Both the position numbers and the translations under genes were made by a program. A stretch of DNA of 64,000 nt from the NCBI GenBank assembly GCA_021795235.1, contig JAJYPP010000011.1:1-64000 (forward strand). Direction: 5' to 3'. Positions within the stretch are counted from its first letter, which is position 1; every line of letters begins with the position of its first letter. Shown piece after piece: positions 17,390-32,335 of this stretch. The DNA is from a bacterium (lineage in GTDB: Bacteria > Chloroflexota > Dormibacteria > Aeolococcales > Bog-877). The notes beneath the pieces are model-generated. The model saw nothing but the letters and a program-made list of their open reading frames with translations, was not told the DNA's origin and ran no database searches.

Positions 17390-18454
17390 TCACAGACGGG
17401 CTGCGATGGCCGCGGTCAGCTCTTTGGTCGAGGCCGAGCCACCAAGGTCAGGGGTCATGATCCCCGCCTGAAGGGATAAGTCGGTGGCCTTCTCAATAGC
17501 CACGGCTGCGGCGGTGGCACCCCAATCTCCCAACAGCATCGCCAGGGTCAGGATGGCCCCCACCGGGTTCGCCACTCCGCGCCCTGCGATCTCGGGAGCC
17601 GCCCCATGGATCGGCTCGTAGAGCGATGGCAGCCCCGCTCGGCCAAGGCTGGCCGATGGGAGCAACCCCAGGGCGCCGGCCAGTGCGGCCGCCTCGTCGC
17701 TGAGGATGTCGCCGAGCAGGTTCTCGGTTACCACCACGTCGAAGCGGGACGGCCGTGACAGCATCTGCACCGCGAAGTCGCCAGGCTCCATGCGCTCGTA
17801 GTCGACGTCCGGGTGGCTGGCCGCCACCTTGTCCAGCACTCCGCGCCAGACCCTAGCGATCGCCAGCACGTCATGGGGGGCCACCGAGGTGACCCGACCG
17901 CGCCGTTGCCGAGCCATTCTGAATGCGGCCAACGCCACTTCGCGAACCTGCCCTGGCGTGTAGGCGAAAACGTCGCTGGCCCGACGGAGGCCGAGTTCAT
18001 CGACCGTCCGCAGGTGCGGCCCCGCATAGGCACCCGCGGCCAGCTCCCGCACGAAGAGGAGGTCGGCTTGATCGCGCAGGCTGGCGCGAATGGGCGAGCT
18101 GGCCGCCGTCCCAGGCCAGCCCCGCACGGGACGCAGAGCGGCGAAACAGCCCAGAGTGTGACGGAGAGCCAGGACGGCCGAGCCCGGGGGTGCCCCGTCC
18201 GCGGCCGCGCCGACCGTGTCGACGGCGCCCAGCAGGACCGCGCCGGCTCTCCTCGCCTGCTGGAGCACGGCCGCGGGTGCCACCTCCCCGCAATCCCTGA
18301 ACGCGGCTCGCCCCAGGGGTGCGCGGGAGACCTCCACCCGCCACGGAAGTCGGGGGGCGATCGCGACCAGGATCTGGAGCGCGGCATCGGTCACCTCGGG
18401 GCCGATGCCGTCGCCGCCAAGGACCAGCAGGTGGCGCACCGCGGCCGGGGTCAC
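17390..18454 (-). CDS. Homoisocitrate/isopropylmalate dehydrogenase-like protein lacking catalytic Lys
   Basis: Last gene of the lysine operon, 354 residues, GTG start overlapping the lysK stop. By position it should oxidise homoisocitrate to 2-oxoadipate. It has the family nucleotide site G-G-D-G-I-G-P-E, the substrate arginines (L-A-L-R-H-T-L-G, L-R-P-V, F-V-R-E-L), the Tyr of G-A-Y-A-G, and the metal region V-T-E-N-L-L-G-D-I-L-S-D-E. However, the catalytic segment that is S-V-D-K-A-N-V-L in this window's LeuB reads S-V-A-P-H-D-V-L here (residues 190-197). The catalytic Lys and the following Asn are therefore replaced, and the first metal Asp position also looks shifted (P-G-D-F). It may be a pseudoenzyme, a subunit of a heteromer, or a divergent enzyme; its activity cannot be assumed. 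Confidence 0.75.
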   Translation of the reverse strand: MTPAAVRHLLVLGGDGIGPEVTDAALQILVAIAPRLPWRVEVSRAPLGRAAFRDCGEVAPAAVLQQARRAGAVLLGAVDTVGAAADGAPPGSAVLALRHTLGCFAALRPVRGWPGTAASSPIRASLRDQADLLFVRELAAGAYAGPHLRTVDELGLRRASDVFAYTPGQVREVALAAFRMARQRRGRVTSVAPHDVLAIARVWRGVLDKVAASHPDVDYERMEPGDFAVQMLSRPSRFDVVVTENLLGDILSDEAAALAGALGLLPSASLGRAGLPSLYEPIHGAAPEIAGRGVANPVGAILTLAMLLGDWGATAAAVAIEKATDLSLQAGIMTPDLGGSASTKELTAAIAARL

Positions 18455-19575
18455 AGTTCGGTCAGGACCGTGGCCAGCACTGAGATCGCACGGCCGTAGT
18501 CATCGATGGCGATGGACTCCTCCGGAGTGTGATCGAGGCTGGCGTCACCAGGGCCGTACACAATCGCCGGACAGCGCCACACCGGCAGGACCACATTGAG
18601 GTCCGACGTCGCCAGCCTCCGCTGCCAGGTGGGGCTCATCCCGAGCGGGCCCATGGCCCGCAGGAAGGTCGCGGGGAGGGTCCCATGACGAGGCACCACC
18701 GCAGCCTCCTCGCCGGCATCAACCACCCAATCCGCGCCCGGAGCCGTGGCCCGGAGGCGGTCCAGCATCTGGGAACTGGACACGTGCGGAGGCAGGCGGA
18801 ACCCCAGCTGCACCAGAGCGTGTTCGGTGAGACCATCGGATCCGCTCTTGAAGCCCAGCAGGTGCGGGTGCACCGCCTCGAAGCCGCTGGCGTCACGGTT
18901 CACCTCATCGACCATCGAACGAATCGCCAGCCACGCCGCGACGCCGAGTTCGGCCGCCGTGGGGTCCGGGCGGGAGCTGTGGACGATCCCGCATCGGAAT
19001 ACGCCGTGGCATCGCAGGCGCCCGAGATAGCCCACCACCAGCCGAGATGATCCCGAGGGCTCGCCCACTATCAGGAAGTCGGGCGGCGGAAGGGCCCCGG
19101 CGAGATGGCGGGCTCCGAGCGAGGTGCTCTCCTCCGCCACCGCGCCCAGGATGTGAACGGGCCGGCGCAGCCGGCCGCTGCCGCGAGCCCTCAGCGCCGC
19201 CGCCACAAACGCAGCCAGCGGCCCTTTGGCATCGGAGGCACCCCGGCCGAACAGGCGTCCCGACTCAAGGACCGGCTCCCAGTGGCCGCCCACCGTGTCG
19301 ATGTGCCCGAGCAGGTAGACCGGCCCCGCGGCCGCGGCCCCGTGCGAAGGCTCCACCACGGCCACGACATTGCCGACCTCGTCTTTGCGAGCTGTGACCC
19401 CGCGGCTCTGCAACCACTTCACCAACCACTCCACCGCCGGCCCCTCCTGGCCGGACTCGCTGGGTATCCTCACCAGTTCTTGGAGCAGAGCCGCCTCGGC
19501 CGGGGTCGCTCCAGGCGGCTGCGACCAGCCGGCCCACCCCTCCCCTCGCGGCACCGCCGGGCCCGGTGCGGTCAC
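18451..19575 (-). CDS. lysK: LysW-lysine carboxypeptidase/hydrolase
   Basis: M20-family metallopeptidase that releases lysine from the LysW carrier in the final step. 374 residues from GTG 19575, which overlaps the lysZ stop (GTGA); the longer frame upstream runs through lysZ and is spurious. The di-metal ligands are all visible: L-L-G-H-I-D-T-V-G-G (His, Asp), R-G-A-S-D-A-K-G-P-L (bridging Asp), V-A-E-E-S-T-S (catalytic Glu and metal Glu), I-V-G-E-P-S-G, and a C-terminal L-D-H-T-P-E-E His. It belongs to the LysK/ArgE-ACY1-DapE group. Next to lysZ, lysY and lysW the assignment to the carrier pathway is firm. Confidence 0.9.
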   Translation of the reverse strand: MTAPGPAVPRGEGWAGWSQPPGATPAEAALLQELVRIPSESGQEGPAVEWLVKWLQSRGVTARKDEVGNVVAVVEPSHGAAAAGPVYLLGHIDTVGGHWEPVLESGRLFGRGASDAKGPLAAFVAAALRARGSGRLRRPVHILGAVAEESTSLGARHLAGALPPPDFLIVGEPSGSSRLVVGYLGRLRCHGVFRCGIVHSSRPDPTAAELGVAAWLAIRSMVDEVNRDASGFEAVHPHLLGFKSGSDGLTEHALVQLGFRLPPHVSSSQMLDRLRATAPGADWVVDAGEEAAVVPRHGTLPATFLRAMGPLGMSPTWQRRLATSDLNVVLPVWRCPAIVYGPGDASLDHTPEESIAIDDYGRAISVLATVLTEL

Positions 19576-20402
19576 TCTCGCGCCCTGGCAACGCCCCGCC
19601 GACGGAAGACGGTTCCCTGGCCACCGCAGGCCTTCGCCACCGGGTCCGCCACCCGCCCGTCCCCGAGCACCACCCGCTGGACACCGCCCTGGAGCGCCTC
19701 CCGCGCGGCCAGGACCTTGAGGCGCATGCGGCCCCTGGCAATCTCCATCGCCCGGCCGATCTCGTGGCGACGGACATCGGGGACCAGCGAATCGGGGTCG
19801 CCCGGATCCATCAGCAGGCCGGGCACGTCGCTGAGCAGGACCAGGGTGTCCGCGCCCAGGGCGCAGGCTACGCTGGCCGCCGCGCGGTCCCCGTCGACGT
19901 TCATCGGTCGGCCCTGTTCGGAGATGGCCGGAGGGCACAGCACCGGCATGTACTGGCCCTCCAGCAGCAGCCGCAGCAGCCCTGAGTTGACCTCGGTGAC
20001 GACCCCGGTCCGATCCCCGCGGAGAACCCGCTCCCGACCGCTGTCGTCGCGGGTCCGCAGCACCCCCTTCTCACGCCCCCGCAGAACCCCGCCGTCCAGC
20101 CCGGTCAGTCCGACCGCGTCGACACCACTGTTCCGGAGGCGCTGGACCACGGCCACATTGGCGCTGCCGGCGTAGACCATGGTGAAGATGTCCATGGTGG
20201 CGTCGTCGGTGTAGCGACTCTGGATCCCCGAGGCAGAGCGCACGTGGACCGGGGGATGTCCCAGCCGGGACGACAGTCGGTCCAACTCCTTGGAGGCTCC
20301 GTGGATCACTACCACCGGTTCCCGCTTCCATCGTTGGGCGAGGTCGGCGCAGATGGCTCCCCAGTCAATGGCGTCACCGCCGCCCACCTTCACCACCAGC
20401 AT
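19572..20402 (-). CDS. lysZ: [LysW]-aminoadipate kinase
   Basis: Acetylglutamate-kinase-family enzyme that phosphorylates the LysW-bound 2-aminoadipate side chain. 276 residues. An AGGAGG touches the first ATG (20408) but lies six bases before the second (20402), so the second is chosen, giving M-L-V-V-K-V-G-G-G. The amino-acid-kinase signatures are the N-terminal K-V-G-G-G, V-V-V-I-H-G-A-S, P-M-N-V-D-G-D-R-A-A and L-S-D-V-P-G-L. The long basic C-terminal end (R-R-R-G-V-A-R-A-R) could help contact the acidic LysW, which is speculative. It lies 34 bp after lysY. Confidence 0.92.
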   Translation of the reverse strand: MLVVKVGGGDAIDWGAICADLAQRWKREPVVVIHGASKELDRLSSRLGHPPVHVRSASGIQSRYTDDATMDIFTMVYAGSANVAVVQRLRNSGVDAVGLTGLDGGVLRGREKGVLRTRDDSGRERVLRGDRTGVVTEVNSGLLRLLLEGQYMPVLCPPAISEQGRPMNVDGDRAAASVACALGADTLVLLSDVPGLLMDPGDPDSLVPDVRRHEIGRAMEIARGRMRLKVLAAREALQGGVQRVVLGDGRVADPVAKACGGQGTVFRRRGVARARE

Positions 20403-20442
20403 GGCCATCCTCCTTCTCGCTGACGCGCCCGTCGCAGCGACT

Positions 20443-21480
20443 TCACAGCGGGTGCAGCCCGGTGAAGGTCAGGCCGGTCCGCTCATCCATCCCCGTGGCG
20501 CAGTTGAGCGCCTGGATCGCATTGCCGGCGGACCCCTTGCCCAGGTTGTCGAGAGCGGCGAACAGGCTCAGCCGCAGCCCCGAGCGGTCCAGTGAGAATC
20601 CCACGTCGCAGAGGTTGGTGCCCGAGAGCCAGCGCGGGTCGGGGAGGCGGTGAAGCCCGGAGCGCTGGGCGACCAGACGGACGAATGGCTCATCGGCATA
20701 GGTGGCTCGAAAGAGCTCCCGGACCTCCCGCTCCGTGACCGCCTCCGCCAGGAAGCAGCGCACCGAGATCGAGATCCCTCGGACCATCTCGACCGCCACC
20801 CCGGCGTAGCTCAGCTGCTCGGACGACCACCCGAGTGCCTGGGCGACCTCGGCGGCGTGACGATGCCCCTCGGGGGCGAACACGCGCACCGCGCGCGAGC
20901 GCTCCGGGTGATGAGAGCCGAGATCAGGCTGGGAACCGCCCGCCGAGGAACCGAATCTGGCCTCGACACAGGCCGGAGAGGTCAGCGCCCAACCCGCCCG
21001 GGCCAACGGCAGCAGGGCCAGGATTGTCCCCACGGCCGAGCAGCCCACTCCACTTATTAGCGGTGCCCCAGCCAGGCCGGCCCGGTGCAGTTCGGGCAGG
21101 CCGTACACCGCCGCGTCCAGAACCGACTGGGGCTCGGACTCGGTTCCGTACCACTGGCGAAATGTGGCCTGGTGGCGCAGTCGCAGACGGGTTCCGCAGT
21201 CGACCACCAGCGGCGCGCGCCCTCTCAGGTCATCCAGTGAAAGGCCCTGGCCTGGCTCGTCGGCCCCGGCAACCACCACGGCGTCGCAGCGCTCCAGGTC
21301 CGGCGGGGCGACGAAGCGCAGGTCCGTGAATCCGCGCAGGTTGGGATGGACCATCGTCACCGGTTTGCCGCGATGGGAGGCCGACGTCACCTGGGCCAGC
21401 TGGCACTCGGGATGGCCAAGCAGCAGGCGCACCAACTCGCCCCCGACGTACCCGGCCCCTCCGACCACGCTCACCCGCAT
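20443..21480 (-). CDS. lysY: [LysW]-aminoadipate semialdehyde/phosphate reductase
   Basis: NADPH-dependent reductase of the ArgC family acting on LysW-bound aminoadipyl phosphate. 345 residues. N-terminal Rossmann motif V-G-G-A-G-Y-V-G-G-E (residues 6-15). The catalytic Cys lies in I-S-G-V-G-C-S-A-V-G, and the G-H-R-H-A-A-E-V segment holds the family's His. The start overlaps the end of lysX by ten bases, consistent with translational coupling. Membership in LysY rather than ArgC rests on the operon context. Confidence 0.92.
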   Translation of the reverse strand: MRVSVVGGAGYVGGELVRLLLGHPECQLAQVTSASHRGKPVTMVHPNLRGFTDLRFVAPPDLERCDAVVVAGADEPGQGLSLDDLRGRAPLVVDCGTRLRLRHQATFRQWYGTESEPQSVLDAAVYGLPELHRAGLAGAPLISGVGCSAVGTILALLPLARAGWALTSPACVEARFGSSAGGSQPDLGSHHPERSRAVRVFAPEGHRHAAEVAQALGWSSEQLSYAGVAVEMVRGISISVRCFLAEAVTEREVRELFRATYADEPFVRLVAQRSGLHRLPDPRWLSGTNLCDVGFSLDRSGLRLSLFAALDNLGKGSAGNAIQALNCATGMDERTGLTFTGLHPL

Positions 21481-22361
21481 CGGTTCAGCTCCGCCACTTC
21501 CAGAACATGCTGGACCAGCAGGTCCGGGATGTCGACGCCGGTGGGCCCCACGCTGTTGCGAAACTCCATGGTGCCGTTGATCTCGTTGACCAACAGCCCT
21601 TCGGAGCTCTCCAGGAGATCCACGGCCAGCGCTCCTCCACCGACCGCGGCGGACGCCCGGCGGCAGACGTCGTCGAGCTCCGGCGATACCACCACCGGCT
21701 CAGCCACCGCGCCGCGGGCGGTGTTCGTGACCCAATGGCTGGAGCGCCGACCGATGGCCGCGACGGTTTGTCCGCCGATGACGAAGGCCCGCAGGTCCCT
21801 CCCCGGCTTGGCGACGTGGGCTTGGAGGTAGAGCACCCGGTGCAGGGCACCGCCCAGCTCTACCTTGTGCTCCAGAATGGCCTCGGCACCGTCGCGGTCG
21901 TTGACTCTGGAGACCAGCCGCCCCCAGGAACCGGTCACGGGCTTGACAACGCAGGGATAACCGAGTGCGTCCACGGCGTCGAGTCCGGCCTCCACCGTGA
22001 AGGCCACCCGGGCCGCGGGGGTGGGCACCCCGGCCGCCTCCAGCGCCAGCGTGGTTTGCAGCTTGTCGCCACAGGTGTCCAGCACCTGGGCGCGGTTCAC
22101 GGTCGCAACCCCCCACGCCGCCAAGACCCTGGCGATGGTGACCTGGCGAGCGTGGCTCAACGAGCGCAGCAGCACGACATCGCACCGGAGCAGGGTGGCG
22201 GTGGGTTCGGCTACCCTCCGGGGCTGCGTGAGCGGCGCGTCGAAGCGTCCATCGTCCACCCGGACCAACTCGACGTTCCGGCGGCGGGAGAAGGCCTCCA
22301 ACAGCAGCTTCTCCTCCACCCTCACCCGGGAGCAGACCAGACCGACGCGCAGCCCGCTCAC
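21471..22361 (-). CDS. lysX: LysW-aminoadipate ligase (ATP-grasp)
   Basis: RimK-like ATP-grasp enzyme that joins 2-aminoadipate to the C-terminal Glu of LysW. 296 residues; GTG 22361 overlaps the lysW stop (GTGA). Visible elements are C-V-V-K-P-V-T-G-S-W-G-R-L-V (nucleotide binding), V-N-E-I-N-G-T-M-E-F-R-N (metal and substrate site) and S-V-G-P-T-G-V-D-I-P. The E-F-R-N-S stretch corresponds to the region that separates LysX from ArgX, but I cannot decide from sequence alone whether it also charges glutamate for arginine synthesis. Confidence 0.92.
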   Translation of the reverse strand: MSGLRVGLVCSRVRVEEKLLLEAFSRRRNVELVRVDDGRFDAPLTQPRRVAEPTATLLRCDVVLLRSLSHARQVTIARVLAAWGVATVNRAQVLDTCGDKLQTTLALEAAGVPTPAARVAFTVEAGLDAVDALGYPCVVKPVTGSWGRLVSRVNDRDGAEAILEHKVELGGALHRVLYLQAHVAKPGRDLRAFVIGGQTVAAIGRRSSHWVTNTARGAVAEPVVVSPELDDVCRRASAAVGGGALAVDLLESSEGLLVNEINGTMEFRNSVGPTGVDIPDLLVQHVLEVAELNRCG

Positions 22362-22546
22362 TCGCCCCAGTCCTCCTCTATCTCGGGAGCCAAGGCGATC
22401 ACAGGCGGATTGACGGAGACCGCCTCCAACTCGGCCAGGCAGTCACCGCAGGGGAGAATCTCGCCATCCACGGTGCCGGGGGGGAGATCGACCCGGGCCC
22501 CACACTCGGGGCAGACAACTGGTTGGGGAACAGGATTAGTGGACAC
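22358..22546 (-). CDS. lysW: LysW amino-group carrier protein
   Basis: Small acidic carrier (62 residues) that masks the amino group of aminoadipate during lysine synthesis. The start is GTG 22546 because AAGGAGA lies eight bases before it; the frame runs 21 codons further into lysU without a site. Four zinc-binding Cys are seen in C-P-E-C and C-G-D-C, and the C-terminus E-I-E-E-D-W-G-E is the LysW signature whose final Glu is the attachment point. It overlaps lysU by 11 bp. Confidence 0.95.
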   Translation of the reverse strand: MSTNPVPQPVVCPECGARVDLPPGTVDGEILPCGDCLAELEAVSVNPPVIALAPEIEEDWGE

Positions 22547-23093
22547 TCTGACTTTCTCCTTGTGTGGCTTGCGTACCGACGTTCTGGGCGCATAGCGGCC
22601 CACATTCACCGCGCAGGCTGCCGTGCGCGCGCACCAGCTCCAGAACCCCGCCGTGGCGCGCGATTCGCTGAGCGAACTCAGGCAGGGGCCGGGCCCGCAA
22701 CACCCGGCCGGTGCCGAGATCCCGCAGAGTCCCCTGGGAGGGGTCGAAGTGGATTTCCGCCTGGTCCTCCACCCCAGTGCAATCGGGACACTCCAGGACC
22801 GGCAGCCCGCGGTTGATGGCGTTGCGGTAGAAGATTCGGCCGTAGCTGGGGGCGATGACGGCCGCGATCCCCGCGGCCTGGATGGCTATGACCGCGTGCT
22901 CCCGCGAGCTCCCGCACCCAAAGTCGGAGCCCGCGACGATCACGTCGCCGGGAGCGACCCGCTCGTGGAACTCGGGCCGAAGCTCGATGAAGCAGGCCCG
23001 GCCGAGGTCGGCCGGGTCGGTCGTCACGTTGTACCGGCCCGGGATGATCTGGTCGGTGTTCACCGAGTCGCCGAAGCGCCAGGCCCGGGCCAT
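22536..23093 (-). CDS. lysU: Homoaconitase small subunit
   Basis: Swivelling domain subunit (185 residues) that pairs with LysT to convert homocitrate to homoisocitrate. The start is the ATG at 23093, overlapping the lysT stop (TGATG); this gives the normal opening with G-D-S-V-N-T-D-Q-I-I-P-G-R-Y-N. The G-R-Y-N-V-T-T loop is the homoaconitase-type specificity loop, in place of the Y-L-R-T/F-L-K-R type of leucine enzymes. G-C-G-S-S-R-E-H-A and Y-G-R-I-F-Y-R-N-A are the conserved swivelling-domain motifs. An ~18-residue C-terminal tail after G-P-L-C is unusual and overlaps the lysW start. Confidence 0.92.
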   Translation of the reverse strand: MARAWRFGDSVNTDQIIPGRYNVTTDPADLGRACFIELRPEFHERVAPGDVIVAGSDFGCGSSREHAVIAIQAAGIAAVIAPSYGRIFYRNAINRGLPVLECPDCTGVEDQAEIHFDPSQGTLRDLGTGRVLRARPLPEFAQRIARHGGVLELVRAHGSLRGECGPLCAQNVGTQATQGESQSVH

Positions 23094-24328
23094 CAGGAGA
23101 TCTCCCTCGGGTCGGTGAGGCAACCGCGCAGGGCGGTGGCGGCGGCGGTGACCGGGCTCACCAGGTAGATCTCACTGCTGGGATCCCCCATCCGCCCCCG
23201 GAAGTTCCGGCTCATGGTCGTGACCGCCTTTTCGCCGGGCCCCAGGACCCCCTTGTGGCGGCCCAGGCAGGGGCCGCACCCCGGGCTCTCGACCGAGACC
23301 CCGGCGGCAACCAGGCTCTCGATGTAGCCGGCCCGGAGCGCAGCCAGGTAGACCTCCCTGGAGGCCGGCACCGCCACCGTCCGGACCGCCACCTGATGCC
23401 CTTGAAGCACCCCTGCCGCGGCGGCAAAGTCAGCCAGGCGACCGTTGGTGCAGGTCCCGATGAAGACCTGATCCACGGCCAGCCCCGCCAGCTCCCGCAC
23501 CGGGCGAGCGGTGTCCACCGCGGGCGGAGTCGCCACCATCGGCTCCAGGCTGTCGAGCAGGAAGACCTCGGTGCGCTCGTAGTGCGGCTGCGTCGGGCGC
23601 ACCATCCGGGGGGCCCGGGCTGTGCGGCCCTCGAGCCAGCTCCGGGTGACCTCGTCGGCGGCGAACATGCCCGCCTTGGCCCCCATCTCCACGGCCATGT
23701 TGCAAAGGGTCATCCGGTCGCCCATCGGCATTGCCCGGGCGGAGCTGCCGGTGTACTCGACCGCCCGATACCGGGCCCCGTCGCTGCCGATCCGCCCCAG
23801 CACGTTGAGGATCAGGTCCTTGGCCGTCACCGCCGGGCCCAGACGGCCCTCCAGGCGGACCTCGATGGTGTCGGGCACCCGCAGCCAGGTCTCGCCGGTG
23901 GCATAGGCGACGGCTACGTCGGTCGAGCCCATTCCGGTGGCGAACGCCCCGAAGGCACCCATCGTGACCGTGTGGCTGTCGGCGCCGACGATGATGTCGC
24001 CTGGCACCACCAGCCCGTGCTCGGGCAGCACCTGGTGGCAAACCCCATCTGTCAACAGGTTGGCCACCCGGTGTTCAGCCGCGAACGCTCGCGCCCTTTG
24101 TTGCTGCTGAGCGGCCGCCACCGTGGCGGCGGGGGTGATGTGATCCAGGACGACCACGGCCCGGTCGGGGTTGGCGACCCCGCGGCCGAGCGCCTGGAGG
24201 CCGTCGGCCACCAGGGGTGTGGTGGTGTCGTGGCTCATCACCAGGTCCACCGGGACGACCACCGTCGTACCTGCTTCGACCGGCCTGCCCAGATGGGCTC
24301 CGATGATCTCCTCAGCCAAGGTTCCCAT
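23093..24328 (-). CDS. lysT: Homoaconitase large subunit
   Basis: Iron-sulfur catalytic subunit, 411 residues, of the 3-isopropylmalate/homoaconitate dehydratase family. Cluster cysteines are present in F-I-G-T-C-T-N-G-R and P-G-C-G-P-C-L-G. G-A-D-S-H-T-V-T-M-G-A-F-G-A-F and M-S-H-D are the other family blocks. GAGGAG lies nine bases before the ATG. The ~410-residue size is that of the homoaconitase/archaeal subgroup, whereas leuC of this window is 477 residues. Lies two bases after hcs. Confidence 0.92.
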   Translation of the reverse strand: MGTLAEEIIGAHLGRPVEAGTTVVVPVDLVMSHDTTTPLVADGLQALGRGVANPDRAVVVLDHITPAATVAAAQQQQRARAFAAEHRVANLLTDGVCHQVLPEHGLVVPGDIIVGADSHTVTMGAFGAFATGMGSTDVAVAYATGETWLRVPDTIEVRLEGRLGPAVTAKDLILNVLGRIGSDGARYRAVEYTGSSARAMPMGDRMTLCNMAVEMGAKAGMFAADEVTRSWLEGRTARAPRMVRPTQPHYERTEVFLLDSLEPMVATPPAVDTARPVRELAGLAVDQVFIGTCTNGRLADFAAAAGVLQGHQVAVRTVAVPASREVYLAALRAGYIESLVAAGVSVESPGCGPCLGRHKGVLGPGEKAVTTMSRNFRGRMGDPSSEIYLVSPVTAAATALRGCLTDPREIS

Positions 24329-24330
24329 GG

Positions 24331-25491
24331 CTAGCTGCTCCTCAACGAGTGCAGGGCCGTCGTGACTACTCCGGCGGTGGCCGCCCGATCCAGGCGACGA
24401 TCCTCAGAAGCCTCCTTGATCGCTCTGGTGGCAGCCTCGACCTCGTGAGCGTCGGCAGCCCTGCCCAGAAGCGTCTCCAGGTAGCCCGCCACCGCATGGC
24501 GCCCCGTCAGGCGCGACCCCACCGCGATGACCCGCGCGCGCCCGACCACCGCGGGATCGATCCACTCGTAGGCGCTGGGCGAGCGCAGGACGGCGTTGCT
24601 GTGCACCCCGGCCACGTGGGTGAAGGCGTGGGCCGCAGTGAGCGGCTGGTTGAACGGGACCGGCATTCCGGACAGCTCCGCGACCCTGGCGTCCAGCGCG
24701 GGCAGGAGTTCCATCCGGTAGCGGCGTGCCTGCTCGGGGGCGACCGTGTACAGCCGCGCCAACAGACCGCTCAACGAGGTGATCCCGACCCGCTCCCCGA
24801 TCCCCAGCACTGTCACATCCAGACAGTCGGCTCCGGCCAGCCAGGCGGCCAGCGAGTTGGCGACCGAACAACCGGTGTCGTTGTGCCCGTGGAACTCCAG
24901 ACTCTGTCCCGGGTAACGCCGCCGCACCGCTCGCACCGTGGAGCTCACCGTGGCCGGCGTCGCGCACCCCACGGTGTCGGGGAGCCCCAGGCGGCTCGCA
25001 CCCGCCTCCACCGCGGTGTCAAAGGCCGCGAAGAGCCGGGACCTGGAAGTGCGAAAGGCGTCTTCGGCGCTGAATCTGACAAACGCGCCGGCCGAGCGCG
25101 CCAGCCCGACGGCCTCACGGATCCGCCGGGTCCGCTCCGAAGCGGACTGCCGGAGGCTGTGCTGAGCCAGCTCCGGCGACGTTCCCAAGAAGAGGTTCAG
25201 GCCGTCGGCACCGGCGCTGAGCGCCAGGGCGATATCTGCGGGGTGGCAGCGCAGGTGAACTCGGACTCTCGCCGACAGACCCAGCTGGAGGATCTCTCCC
25301 AGTTCCTCCGCTGCCCGCGGGGAGACGGCGGGAGATGGCACCTCCAGTTCGTCGACCCCAACAGCGTCAAGGGCCCGCGCCAGCTCCACCCGTTCAGCCG
25401 CCGAGAAATGCGCGTCCGCGAACTGTTCGCCCTCGCGCAGGGTGGTGTCGATCAGCCGCAGCTGTCGATCTCCGTGATCCAGTCGTCGCAT
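24331..25491 (-). CDS. hcs: Homocitrate synthase
   Basis: First enzyme of the AAA lysine pathway: condenses acetyl-CoA and 2-oxoglutarate. 386 residues, first gene behind the T-box. The DRE-TIM metallolyase motifs are intact: I-D-T-T-L-R-E-G-E-Q-F, E-F-H-G-H-N-D-T-G (HxH metal site), and G-I-G-E-R-V-G-I-T-S-L-S-G. F-T-H-V-A-G-V-H-S contains the late catalytic His. CCAGGAGG lies five bases before the ATG and can be masked by the leader (see T-box). NifV is a close relative, but no nif genes are near and the operon fixes the role. Confidence 0.93.
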   Translation of the reverse strand: MRRLDHGDRQLRLIDTTLREGEQFADAHFSAAERVELARALDAVGVDELEVPSPAVSPRAAEELGEILQLGLSARVRVHLRCHPADIALALSAGADGLNLFLGTSPELAQHSLRQSASERTRRIREAVGLARSAGAFVRFSAEDAFRTSRSRLFAAFDTAVEAGASRLGLPDTVGCATPATVSSTVRAVRRRYPGQSLEFHGHNDTGCSVANSLAAWLAGADCLDVTVLGIGERVGITSLSGLLARLYTVAPEQARRYRMELLPALDARVAELSGMPVPFNQPLTAAHAFTHVAGVHSNAVLRSPSAYEWIDPAVVGRARVIAVGSRLTGRHAVAGYLETLLGRAADAHEVEAATRAIKEASEDRRLDRAATAGVVTTALHSLRSS

Positions 25492-25497
25492 GGTAGC

Positions 25498-25828
25498 CTC
25501 CTGGCCCTACGGCCACGCCCAATCCGGACGACCGGAAACGGTCGTCCAAGAGGGCGCGACCGGAGCCCGAGGGCTCCGACCACGCGGTACCACCTCTTTT
25601 CGCCGGCGCCTCGCGACGCCGACCTTTGCGGGTGCCATCACACCCTGCCCCCATCACGGCGGGACTCCCGCTGGGTTCTACTCCCGAATTGAGGTCCGGT
25701 TTCTTCCCAGGGCTCGGAGGTCTTTTTCGAAAGGGGTTCCCTGCGGCTTTTCCAGCTACCGGCCGCTCTCTTGAGGGAGCCTGGTCTTCCTACTCTTCCT
25801 CGTCGTCGCCTCTGCTATTCAGTTGTGG
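25498..25828 (-). promoter_or_regulatory. T-box leader, lysine (AAG) specifier, likely translational
   Basis: Reading the minus strand, Stem I has AGTA (25794-25791) facing GAA (25728-25726), the loop-E pattern of T-box specifier loops, flanked by helices GAGG/CCTC and GGAAG/CTTTC. The specifier next to the invariant A is AAG (25724-25722), lysine. The conserved AGAGAGC apical element follows at 25771-25765. The T-box itself reads AGAGGTGGTACCGCG, with TGGTACC at 25592-25586 complementary to a tRNA end ACCA, and closes with CGCGCCCTCTT. No U-run terminator follows. Instead CCTCTTGG (25553-25546) can pair over eight positions with the ribosome site CCAGGAGG (25504-25497), so binding of uncharged tRNA-Lys should free the hcs start. 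Translational T-boxes of this kind are known from actinobacterial ileS. Confidence 0.88.
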
Positions 25829-25834
25829 ATCGGC

Positions 25835-25863
25835 ACCATAGCAGGTTGCCTGCGGTGAGCGCA
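25835..25863 (-). promoter_or_regulatory. Promoter of T-box/lys operon
   Basis: On the minus strand TTGCGC (25863-25858), a 17 bp spacer and TATGGT (25840-25835) fit a sigma-70-like promoter. It starts directly after the lysJ stop, so hcs and following genes can be transcribed independently of lysJ. The predicted start near 25828 lies about 17 bases before Stem I. Confidence 0.5.
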
Positions 25864-25871
25864 AGTCCGAA

Positions 25872-28825: not shown

Positions 28826-28851
28826 TATCATGCTACCATGCTAGCATGATA
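28826..28851. promoter_or_regulatory. Divergent his operator palindrome with embedded -10 boxes
   Basis: TATCATGCTA, six bases, then TAGCATGATA: a perfect 10 bp inverted repeat in the hisA/regulator gap. TATCAT at the left end can act as -10 for the plus strand, and the same hexamer on the other strand (28851-28846) for hisA. The right arm includes the start codon of the regulator gene. A TrpR-family regulator bound here would block both directions. Confidence 0.65.
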
Positions 28852-29169
28852 AAGCGGCCTCAGATCGTCTCCCCTCAGCCGGCACCTGGGGACGACCCGG
28901 CGGCGGACCTGTTCGCGGCCGTCGCGATGTTGACCTCCACCCAGGAGGCATCGGACTTCCTGCGGGACCTCTGCACGATCCAGGAGCTCCAGGCGCTCGC
29001 CACTCGCTGGCAGGTGGCTCGGCTGCTCCACCAAGGCATGCACTACCAGGAGGTCGCGGAGCGGACGGGGGCCAGCACCGCCACCATAAGCCGGGTCAGC
29101 AGCTGGCTGCGATTCGGGACGGGAGGCTACCGCACCATGCTCGAGCGCTGGCCGCAGACAAGCTCGTGA
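28846..29169 (+). CDS. TrpR/YerC-family regulator (probable HisR)
   Basis: A 107-residue TrpR-like DNA-binding protein. Helices at about residues 25-60 contain F-L-R-D-L-C-T-I-Q-E-L-Q-A-L-A-T-R-W-Q-V-A. The reading head is H-Y-Q-E-V-A-E-R-T-G-A-S-T-A-T-I-S-R-V, the family's helix-turn-helix. YerC-type proteins next to his genes have been proposed as histidine repressors (HisR) in Firmicutes. Here it is the first gene of the hisG operon and its own start codon lies in the palindrome, so autorepression is likely. GTGA overlap with hisG. Co-repressor identity (histidine?) is inferred. Confidence 0.85.
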   Translation: MIKRPQIVSPQPAPGDDPAADLFAAVAMLTSTQEASDFLRDLCTIQELQALATRWQVARLLHQGMHYQEVAERTGASTATISRVSSWLRFGTGGYRTMLERWPQTSS

Positions 29170-30044
29170 TCGACACCGGATCCCCCACTCAGCGACTGCG
29201 GCTGGCGCTGCCCAACAAGGGGCGCCTGTGTCAGCCGGCCCTGAACCTGCTCCGCGAGACCGGGCTGGTCTTCGAAGAGGACGATCGCCGTCTGTTCGCG
29301 CCCTGCCACAACTACCCCCTCGACCTGCTCTTTGTCCGCGCCGACGACATCGGCGAGTACACCCAGGACGGCGTGGTCGACCTGGGCATCACCGGGTCCA
29401 ACCTGTTGGAGGAGGCCGGCGCCGCCGTGGTCCACCGCCTGGAGCTCGGGTTCGGCCGCTGCCGCCTGCAGCTCGCCGCCCCGCATGCGGCCCAGATCAC
29501 CACCGCCGAGGACCTGGCCGGGCGCGTGGTCGCGACCTCGCACCCTCGGATCACGGCTGAGTTCTTTGCCGCGCGCCAGGTAAAGGTCCGCCTGATCGAG
29601 ATCAGCGGAGCGGTGGAGGTGGCGCCGCTCCTGGGAGTGGCCGACGCGATCGCGGACCTGGTGGCCAGTGGCAGCACCTTGGCCACCAACGGCCTCAAAC
29701 CGCTGGAGACGCTCCTGGAGTCGCAGGCGGAGCTGGTGGCCCACCAGAACCTGGCGCCGGACCGTCTCCGCCTTGTGGAGGAGCTGACTCTGATGATCGC
29801 CAGCGTCATCGCCGCCAGCCAGCGGAGGTATCTCATGCTCAACGCCCCGACCGACTCAGTCGAGCGGATTCGAAGCGTGATACCCGGGATGGGCGCTCCC
29901 TCGGTGATCCAGCTGGCTGCCCCCGGCATGGTGGCCATTCACGCCGTGGTCGATGCCGAGACGATCTGGCAACACCTCGGTCCACTCCGCGAGGCCGGAG
30001 CCTCGTCGATCCTGGTGCTGCCCATAGAGAAGTTGATCCCATGA
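29166..30044 (+). CDS. hisG: ATP phosphoribosyltransferase (long form)
   Basis: Joins ATP and PRPP, the first step of histidine synthesis. 292 residues is the long HisG, with a C-terminal ACT-like regulatory domain (about residues 215-292) that binds histidine; a HisZ partner is therefore not needed. The N-terminal L-A-L-P-N-K-G-R-L and D-L-G-I-T-G-S-N-L motifs and the PRPP region D-L-V-A-S-G-S-T-L are present. GTG start overlaps the regulator stop by four bases; the stop overlaps the hisD-hisC start. Confidence 0.94.
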   Translation: MIDTGSPTQRLRLALPNKGRLCQPALNLLRETGLVFEEDDRRLFAPCHNYPLDLLFVRADDIGEYTQDGVVDLGITGSNLLEEAGAAVVHRLELGFGRCRLQLAAPHAAQITTAEDLAGRVVATSHPRITAEFFAARQVKVRLIEISGAVEVAPLLGVADAIADLVASGSTLATNGLKPLETLLESQAELVAHQNLAPDRLRLVEELTLMIASVIAASQRRYLMLNAPTDSVERIRSVIPGMGAPSVIQLAAPGMVAIHAVVDAETIWQHLGPLREAGASSILVLPIEKLIP

Positions 30045-32335
30045 GTCAGGCACCGTCGCTCTCGAGGACCGCCTCATCCGACCGTCCCCACGCTGAAGGG
30101 GTGGACCGGGAAGCCCAGGCGATCCTGGACCAGGTCAGACGGGAGGGTGACCGCGCAGTCCGGTCTTTGACCATGCGATTCGACGGGGTCGCACCAGAGC
30201 AGACCAGAGTCGATCCCATGGAGCTCGCCAAGGCCCTGGACCAGGCGCCGGCTGCCCTGGTCGAGGCGCTCCGGGCCTCCGCCGCCAACCTCACTCGAGT
30301 CGGCCTGGCTCAGCGATTCTCGGAGGAGGTGGTCGACGTGCGACCGGGCGTCAAGGTGTGGAGGATCTGGCGCCCGCTGCATCGCGTCGGCGTCTACGTC
30401 CCGGGCGGACGTGCACCCTATCCGTCGTCGGTGCTGATGCTCTGCGTACCCGCGCGGCTGGCCGGCTGCGCGGAGGTCGTCATCTGCTCTCCTCCCGGCA
30501 AGGATGGGCTGCCAGCCCAGAACATCCTGGTCGCGGCCGCCGTCGCCGGGGTCACCGAGGTACACGCCATCGGAGGTGCTCAGGCAGTGGCGGCCATGGC
30601 GTATGGCACCGAGACCATGGCCAGGGTCGACAAGGTCTTCGGGCCTGGCAACGCCCATGTGACCGCCGCCAAGCGGCTGGTCTCCGGAGACGTGGCGGTC
30701 GACATGCCCGCCGGTCCCTCGGAGGTCATCGTGGTGAGTGATGGCTCCGTCCCCTCGAGCTGGATCGCGGCGGATCTGGAGGCCCAGGCGGAGCACGCTC
30801 CCGATGCTCTGGGGATCCTGGTCTCGACCAACCCGGTGCAGGCGGAGGAGGTCGCGCGGCTGGCGGATCCAAAGTACGCGGCGCAGATCCGGGTCCGCAC
30901 CGTCGCCAGCATGGAGGCCGCTCTGGAGGTCGCCAACGGCTTCGGCCCGGAGCACCTCATCCTGGCCTGCCGGGATGCGGAGTCCTGGCTCGGGTCGGTG
31001 ACCCACGCGGGCTCGGTCTTCCTGGGATCGCACTCCCCCGCGGCCGCCGGAGATTATGCGACCGGCGCCAACCACGTGATCCCGACCGGGGGCGCGGTGC
31101 GAGCCTACAGCCCGCTTGGTCTGGAAGCCTTCGGCCGCACCCTGCAGGTCCAGGCCATCTCGCCCCAGGGGCTAGCCCGGTTGGGGCCGGTGGTCGAGCC
31201 CCTGGCGCGCGCGGAGGGCTTTCTGGCACACCTGCGCTCGGTGCAGACCCGCCTGGACGCCCCGGCCGCGGCGGAGCGCAACGTTCCCCGGCCCCGTCGG
31301 GACGTGGCCGCCATGCACCCCTACCGCTGGGAGGCGTCGAACGCCGAGATCGCCGTCCGGGCGGGGATCAGCGAGCGGGAAGTGCTTCGTTTCGACACCA
31401 ACACCTGCCCTTGGGTGGGCGCGACACTGACCGGCCTGGACCACCTAGAACTCAACGAGTACCCGGATTCCGACTACCCCGGGCTGGTGTCCGCGGTCGC
31501 GGATTACGCCTCCTGCCCCAAGGAGACGATCACGGTCGGCGCTGGTGCCGACGAGTTGCTGCAGCTGCTCGCCCTGGCCTTCATCGGGCCCGGTGATCCA
31601 GCGGTGATCCCCGATCCCAGCTACGCCATGTACCGGACTCTCACCGAAGCCGCTGGAGGCCGACCCGTGATGGCACCGGTCAGCGACCCAGACCAGCTCA
31701 TGCGTTCCGCGCTCCAGGCCCGCCTCACCTGGCTCTGCAACCCCAACAACCCCACGGCGGAGCCGCTGCCGCCGGGGTTCGTCGAGGAGCTGGCCCGCCA
31801 GAGCTCTGGCCTGGTCGTGGTGGACGAGGCCTACTTCGAATTCTCCCAGACCACCTGCGCCCCGCTGGTTCGAGAGCTCGGCAACCTGGTCGTGGTGCGA
31901 ACCCTCAGCAAGGCCTTCGGCCTGGCCGGCGCCAGGGTCGGCTACGCGCTCTCGGGGCCGGAGGTTGCGGCCACGCTGGCCAGAGTCCGCCCCCCGGCCA
32001 GCCTCAGCACGATCTCCGCCGCTCTTGGTACTCGCGCCCTCAAAGAGGCGGCGACGATGCGAGCCAGAGTGCAGGCGCTGCTGCTAGAACGGCAGACCCT
32101 GGCGAATGCGATCGCGGCGATGGGCTTCACGGTCCCCCAGTCCTCGACCAACTTCCTGCTGGTCAGCTGTCCTTCCGGGCTGGCCGACTTCCTGGAGGCC
32201 AAGGGTCTCGTGGTGCGGCGGTTCCCGCAGGACCACGCCCTCAACGGATGGATGCGTGTCACCGTGCGGTCGGCTCAAGAGAACGCCCAGCTGCTCGACC
32301 GGTTGGCGACCTGGGATGGTCCCCGTGCCAGCTGA
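30041..32335 (+). CDS. hisDC: HisD-HisC fusion: histidinol dehydrogenase + histidinol-phosphate aminotransferase
   Basis: A single 764-residue frame carries two complete enzymes. Residues 1-~410 are HisD: G-V-Y-V-P-G-G-R-A-P-Y-P-S-S, M-P-A-G-P-S-E-V, Q-A-E-H-A-P-D-A (zinc ligands), G-P-E-H-L, G-D-Y-A-T-G-A-N-H and the C-terminal His of E-G-F-L-A-H. After a linker rich in Pro/Ala/Arg (about 405-424) residues 425-764 are HisC, a fold-type I PLP enzyme with C-N-P-N-N-P-T, V-V-D-E-A-Y and the Schiff-base Lys in R-T-L-S-K-A-F-G. The two catalyse non-adjacent steps (HisC, then phosphatase, then HisD). An in-frame ATG at 31313 opens the HisC part and could give a separate product. No frame interruption is seen at the joint. 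Confidence 0.9.
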   Translation: MSQAPSLSRTASSDRPHAEGVDREAQAILDQVRREGDRAVRSLTMRFDGVAPEQTRVDPMELAKALDQAPAALVEALRASAANLTRVGLAQRFSEEVVDVRPGVKVWRIWRPLHRVGVYVPGGRAPYPSSVLMLCVPARLAGCAEVVICSPPGKDGLPAQNILVAAAVAGVTEVHAIGGAQAVAAMAYGTETMARVDKVFGPGNAHVTAAKRLVSGDVAVDMPAGPSEVIVVSDGSVPSSWIAADLEAQAEHAPDALGILVSTNPVQAEEVARLADPKYAAQIRVRTVASMEAALEVANGFGPEHLILACRDAESWLGSVTHAGSVFLGSHSPAAAGDYATGANHVIPTGGAVRAYSPLGLEAFGRTLQVQAISPQGLARLGPVVEPLARAEGFLAHLRSVQTRLDAPAAAERNVPRPRRDVAAMHPYRWEASNAEIAVRAGISEREVLRFDTNTCPWVGATLTGLDHLELNEYPDSDYPGLVSAVADYASCPKETITVGAGADELLQLLALAFIGPGDPAVIPDPSYAMYRTLTEAAGGRPVMAPVSDPDQLMRSALQARLTWLCNPNNPTAEPLPPGFVEELARQSSGLVVVDEAYFEFSQTTCAPLVRELGNLVVVRTLSKAFGLAGARVGYALSGPEVAATLARVRPPASLSTISAALGTRALKEAATMRARVQALLLERQTLANAIAAMGFTVPQSSTNFLLVSCPSGLADFLEAKGLVVRRFPQDHALNGWMRVTVRSAQENAQLLDRLATWDGPRAS

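Follow-up and report, generated by a model that had tools for sequence, protein, structure and literature searches.

A T-box leader with a lysine specifier and no intrinsic terminator before the LysW operon in a family of Dormibacteria

The 64,000-nucleotide stretch of DNA analysed here (the window) comes from an uncultured bacterium of the Dormibacterota/Chloroflexota. Both the Rfam T-box model RF00230 and a reading of the sequence show a complete T-box leader on its minus strand, in the space that separates lysJ from hcs. We think that this leader, equipped with a candidate promoter of its own, governs the LysW (alpha-aminoadipate) operon behind it through the translation of the first gene, hcs, and we would put the probability of this reading at roughly 0.7. 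The leader is a T-box judged by its fold, specifier, bulge, cognate tRNA and gene context; its lysine specificity and the LysW operon as its target are well supported, and what it senses is most likely uncharged lysine tRNA, although the binding of the tRNA is something that we infer.

The leader and the operon behind it

RF00230 aligns end to end (model positions 1-219 of 219) with window positions 25815-25547 on the minus strand, at 66.5 bits and E=3.5e-14 in a search of 701 bases. The preliminary description of this DNA had proposed such a check with the covariance model, and the match is clear, though below the gathering score of the model, which is 93 bits. This is why a window-wide Rfam search at the gathering threshold listed no matches. 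We reject the conclusion that no T-box is present, because the cut-off is a strict one that the clearest relatives also fail: none of 81 related genomes passes it (the best reaches 91.2 bits), even though some of them carry "textbook" T-boxes with terminators. In a search at E up to 10, this leader was the sole T-box found in the source genome. A lysine riboswitch (L-box, RF00168), which likewise exerts feedback control of lysine biosynthesis from a leader RNA but has another fold and senses free lysine, was considered and rejected, since neither the window-wide nor the leader Rfam search gave a match.

All the parts of the leader lie on the minus strand, and every feature named in the preliminary description (AGTA/GAA, AAG, AGAGAG, TGGTACC and the 3' arm) is present. 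Stem I (25712-25809), placed by the RF00230 alignment and conserved in the window's family, is of the long form and not shortened, with AGUA at 25794-25791, GAA at 25728-25726 and two distal elements, AGAGAG (25771-25766) and GGUAGCUGGAA. The specifier loop, in which AGUA faces GAA-A-AAG-A-CC, is in the Rfam consensus register, so the specifier (25722-25724, one base past GAA and followed by a purine) is AAG, for lysine. The antisequestrator, the equivalent of an antiterminator (25548-25598, from the RF00230 alignment and family conservation), has AAGAGG (25598-25593) as its 5' arm and CCUCUU (25553-25548) as its 3' arm, and between them a bulge UGGUACC (25592-25586), of the UGGN kind typical of T-boxes, whose UGGU can pair with the ACCA end of the tRNA. 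The genome encodes a tRNA-Lys(CUU) ending in ...GCACCA, matching the AAG specifier, as well as a tRNA-Lys(UUU); both have the discriminator A that suits a UGGU bulge, and the genes downstream are those of a lysine operon.

The first of these genes, hcs (24331-25491, minus strand), encodes a homocitrate synthase according to its best NCBIfam match, TIGR02146, which falls below its curated cut-off. Its ATG (25491-25489) stands 5 nt behind a Shine-Dalgarno sequence (SD) GGAGG (25497-25501). Then follow, together at 17390-24328 on the minus strand, hacA, hacB, lysW, lysX, lysY, lysZ, lysK and a gene for a homoisocitrate dehydrogenase-like protein, hicDH, which confirms the tightly packed nine-gene LysW operon described earlier; the same order is found in a relative, G010, including lysJ and the his neighbours. 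On the other side, lysJ lies just upstream of the leader. A promoter had been placed just behind it, and we find a candidate (25835-25864, minus strand) made of TTGCGC (25864-25859), an 18-nt spacer ending in TGC, and TATGGT (25840-25835), that is, an extended -10 arrangement. A similar TTGC...TGNTA pattern is seen at the corresponding position ahead of the leader in three relatives (L062, L063 and L166), but a strict sigma-70 consensus scan did not pick up the site in the window, which we keep as a candidate.

No lysA (diaminopimelate decarboxylase) was found in the source genome, so that, as far as can be judged from a 92%-complete assembly, the LysW operon looks like its only lysine route. 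Three genomes of the same genus (G001, G002 and G003) carry lysA, and a close hcs homologue was not found in them. Beside a PHP gene, G001 has an 86-residue lysK-like piece (L170:9513-9764), which gives the impression that these same-genus genomes lost the LysW operon and exchanged their lysine pathway. Metagenome contamination was rejected for the contig of the window, as its hisD-hisC fusion is 89% identical to that of a same-genus genome. This fusion, a single reading frame of 764 residues (window 30041-32335, plus strand), also exists in the same-genus genomes and in G010. Directly before hisG lies a small gene for a TrpR/YerC-like regulator (28846-29169, plus strand), named by eye, which keeps this position in four relatives and is possibly a regulator of his genes.

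Relatives with and without a terminator

It had been suggested to look for the same element before hcs in related genomes, and it occurs in five copies in the window's family (f1), in four genomes of four genera (the source genome, G010, G004 and, twice, G008), with AAG as specifier in all five, and those hcs proteins that are intact share 68-75% identity with that of the window. Common to the copies are GAA-A-AAG-A-CC, the antisequestrator with a hairpin following its 3' arm, the sequence GGCGUGGCC, the block GGCC-N-GGAG, and a start codon 5 nt past the SD; in G010 the outermost pair of the antisequestrator is G-C instead of A-U (one compensated pair). The second copy of T-box and operon in G008 (L166, contig C103) has an hcs and a hacA that are shortened or frame-shifted.

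Transcriptional T-boxes possess an intrinsic terminator, and here, as the preliminary description had stated, there is none. A terminator scan gave no terminator-like site on the minus strand of the leader region, and a hairpin followed by a U-run is found in none of the five family copies (which never have more than four T in eight bases), versus all 27 lysine T-boxes checked outside the family (16 f3 copies, f3 being another family of the class, and 11 others), where a stable hairpin and then a U-run come 33-49 nt past the T-box core. What does stand directly behind the 3' arm is the hairpin GACGACC/GGUCGUC (25527-25546, minus strand), present with changed letters in all five copies and with no U-run after it. 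Because the family lacks a terminator that every comparable lysine T-box elsewhere has, we infer that the output of the leader is likely translational rather than transcriptional.

The closest outsider is G181. Its T-box is 78% identical over 147 nt to the leader of G004 and its hcs is the sister of the family hcs genes in the tree (support 97/90), yet this orthologous T-box/hcs unit has a terminator. Within what is apparently one orthologous unit of sensor and gene, the expression platform has thus been changed; the change may have gone either way, the terminator form being the common one.

The leader shares with the transcriptional T-boxes of RF00230 the long Stem I, the AGUA/GAA specifier loop, the UGGN bulge and the antiterminator, but it has no terminator and ends directly at the SD of hcs. 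In this it resembles the translational T-boxes of actinobacterial ileS genes (PMC7583486, PMC10651847), which also lack a terminator, lead up to the SD and follow a two-state antisequestrator logic of the kind proposed below for the leader; it differs from them in that Stem I is not shortened, the amino acid is lysine instead of isoleucine and the target is a biosynthetic operon instead of a synthetase gene. Translational T-boxes usually have a shortened Stem I without the distal elbow-binding motif, with few exceptions allowed (PMC7583486). The long Stem I of our leader would be unusual in that class, and we count it as a point against a translational assignment.

How the ribosome site may be switched

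In the mechanism that we propose, Stem I would read tRNA-Lys by the AAG specifier. If this tRNA is uncharged, its ACCA end would pair with the UGGU bulge and stabilise the antisequestrator, which would lock the 3' strand GGUCGCGCCCUCUU and set free GGCGUGGCC; the latter could then close a small GGCC hairpin, leaving GGAGG open. With tRNA-Lys charged or absent, the 3' strand would pair with GGCGUGGCC instead and the neighbourhood of the SD would be drawn into pairing (in the window sequence, with the released T-box strand), so that initiation would fall at hcs and perhaps also at the tightly packed genes behind it.

Four minus-strand segments could carry this exchange. The first is GGUC (25578-25581, conserved as GGYC), able to pair with the second in the "on" state or with the fourth in the "off" state; the second, GGUCGCGCC (25553-25561), is the 3' strand of the antisequestrator and is also complementary to the third, GGCGUGGCC (25511-25519), which mimics the 5' strand of the antisequestrator; the fourth is GGCC (25503-25506), one base before the ribosome site, which may form a hairpin with the third or pair with the first. 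The third and the fourth are invariant in the five copies.

This was modelled by folding, in all five family copies, the region that begins with the 5' arm and ends at the start codon, with the antisequestrator either forced or left free. In each of them the SD is more open when the antisequestrator is forced, its mean unpaired probability being 0.59-0.80 as against 0.20-0.41 in the free fold. The forced state costs 7.6-10.8 kcal/mol (a gap of about 9 kcal/mol between "on" and "off"), as one would expect if the switch depends on tRNA to be turned on. When the sequence from arm to SD was shuffled, the mean energy gap was reached in 0.5% of sets and the mean difference in SD opening in 4.5% of shuffled five-copy sets, single copies being within the shuffle range. 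The partner of the 3' strand GGYCNCGCC is GGCGUGGCC in most free folds. In the window sequence and in L061 there is further pairing of the freed T-box strand, with the GGCC next to the SD and with bases of the SD itself; the burial of the SD differs among copies, with no one common way. An "off" state in which the 3' arm of the antisequestrator is held by GGCGUGGCC, as part of a four-strand GGYC/GGCC exchange, is thus the one favoured by the models.

The preliminary description had put forward a simpler idea, in which the 3' arm masks the SD directly by pairing of CCUCUUGG with CCAGGAGG. The complementarity is real (eight pairs, one of them G-U, in the window sequence, and seven or eight pairs in the other copies), and this would be the simplest sequestrator of the SD. 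In two of the five copies, however, the helix is interrupted by an internal mismatch, and in a third it is mismatched at its end. Forcing it puts the ensemble about 7-20 kcal/mol higher than the free fold. It also clashes with the conserved hairpin that follows the arm, and since it crosses the helix of the second and third strands, the two could form together only as a pseudoknot. A shuffle test of the pairing between the 3' arm and the sequence downstream, taken by itself, was not decisive, and helix-wise covariation cannot choose among the alternative helices, with five sequences in which most pairs never vary. On balance, this exact helix is probably not right, and we regard direct masking of the SD by the 3' arm as improbable. 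The earlier proposal of translational control by tRNA-Lys keeps its T-box, its lysine specificity, its operon and its missing terminator, and a translational output that is likely but not proven, while its sequestering helix is disfavoured.

About as improbable, or slightly more so, is that the lysine T-box controls transcription by means other than a classical terminator, such as Rho or pausing at strong GC hairpins. Such hairpins do stand behind the antisequestrator of the window leader, and the lysine T-boxes found elsewhere are all of the terminator type; against this, none of the five copies has a U-run, the terminator scan gave no terminator-like site, and the conserved block GGCC-N-GGAG abuts the SD. 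A decayed T-box, whose regulation would have gone with its terminator, might be suspected from the sub-threshold RF00230 score, the missing terminator and the damaged operon behind one of the two G008 copies, but it is very improbable given that the specifier loop, the T-box core, the antisequestrator and the SD-proximal elements are invariant or compensated at 68-75% hcs identity, and that a second T-box type of the family, before aspS, is terminator-less too.

That second type, with the specifier GAC, precedes a gene for an aspartate--tRNA(Asn)-type ligase (aspS) at L013 (G011) and L155 (G008), and has bases near its 3' arm (GCACUCC) that are complementary to the region of the ribosome site.

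To return to the translational reading, its most specific form remains tentative, and we hold it to be somewhat less probable than not: that the expression platform is a four-strand exchange of GGYC(1), GGYC(2), GGCC(3) and GGCC(4), with 1-2 and 3-4 paired in the "on" state and 2-3 and 1-4 in the "off" state, and that it replaced the terminator of the orthologous lysine T-box/hcs unit, or was replaced by it. If true, it would document a shift of T-box output between transcription and translation, with the sensor and its long Stem I left unchanged.

Lysine T-boxes on the LysW route in Chloroflexota

A search for a T-box core within 700 bases before hcs in other Chloroflexota, and at further loci, gave none beyond the window's family; weak core matches appeared at L107, L119, L129 and L139, the first of which proved on closer look to be no T-box. 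In family f3, an AAG T-box precedes hcs in 16 genomes, with a LysW operon including lysJ behind it in all three that were checked further. The pattern of the lysine specifier loop was also searched for over 400 genomes of the phylum. Lysine T-boxes were found before hcs-hacA in G181, before hcs in G157, before lysW in G123, before a LysW-like gene followed by lysX, lysY and lysZ in G212, before lysX in G427, G431 and G451, before dapA-dapB in G332 (dapB being named by eye), and, in G219, before a gene for a homoisocitrate dehydrogenase-like protein accompanied by a class I lysyl-tRNA synthetase. The lysine T-box on the LysW route is, from these sequences, a recurrent feature of the phylum. Those of G181, G157, G123 and f3 have the lysine specifier and the pathway in common with the window but carry the hairpin and U-run terminators that its leader lacks.

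Several other observations came with these searches. L207 (G181) has a bulge UGGGAUC where the window leader has UGGUACC, so that its tRNA-Lys would need a different discriminator base, and L212 (G396) has two tandem T-boxes, the first with a lysine specifier, with a terminator between them. Further T-box cores in f3 (L156, L157, L163, L164 and L165), most of which match no more than about 110 nt of the model, stand before genes for a small protein and for an enzyme that is of the thiamine-diphosphate type or resembles acetolactate synthase; a U-run seems to be missing at L163 and L165. In genomes of f2, a sister family of the order, T-boxes with terminators stand before acetolactate synthase (ilvB) at L158-L161.

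Lysine is among the rarest specificities recorded for T-boxes (PMC7778990), and for its targets we found descriptions of lysyl-tRNA synthetases (PMC2916919) and of a predicted permease (PMC2494555). The lysK/lysS T-boxes of Bacillus cereus, B. thuringiensis, Clostridium beijerinckii and Symbiobacterium (PMC2916919) are likewise lysine T-boxes that sense tRNA-Lys charging, but they act on lysyl-tRNA synthetase, whereas the T-box of the window would act on the LysW biosynthetic operon and has no terminator. We found no description of lysine T-boxes before LysW operons in the open literature searched (entries of TBDB may contain such cases unremarked), and the LysW route is apparently a target undescribed so far.

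In the hcs tree, the genes of the window's family and of G181 belong to a different deep branch from those of f3. A single vertical origin of the lysine T-box/hcs unit in the Dormibacteria families f1 and f3 is therefore not supported, and lysine T-boxes have come to precede homocitrate synthase lineages that are not sisters. Together with their presence before lysW or lysX in other families, this would suggest repeated recruitment of the T-box, or gene exchange behind the leader.

That lysine T-boxes precede genes of the LysW route in several Chloroflexota families names a feedback signal for this pathway, the charging of tRNA-Lys. Moreover, since the sensor is without a terminator in the window's family and with one in the orthologous unit, a change of T-box output between transcription and translation becomes directly testable.
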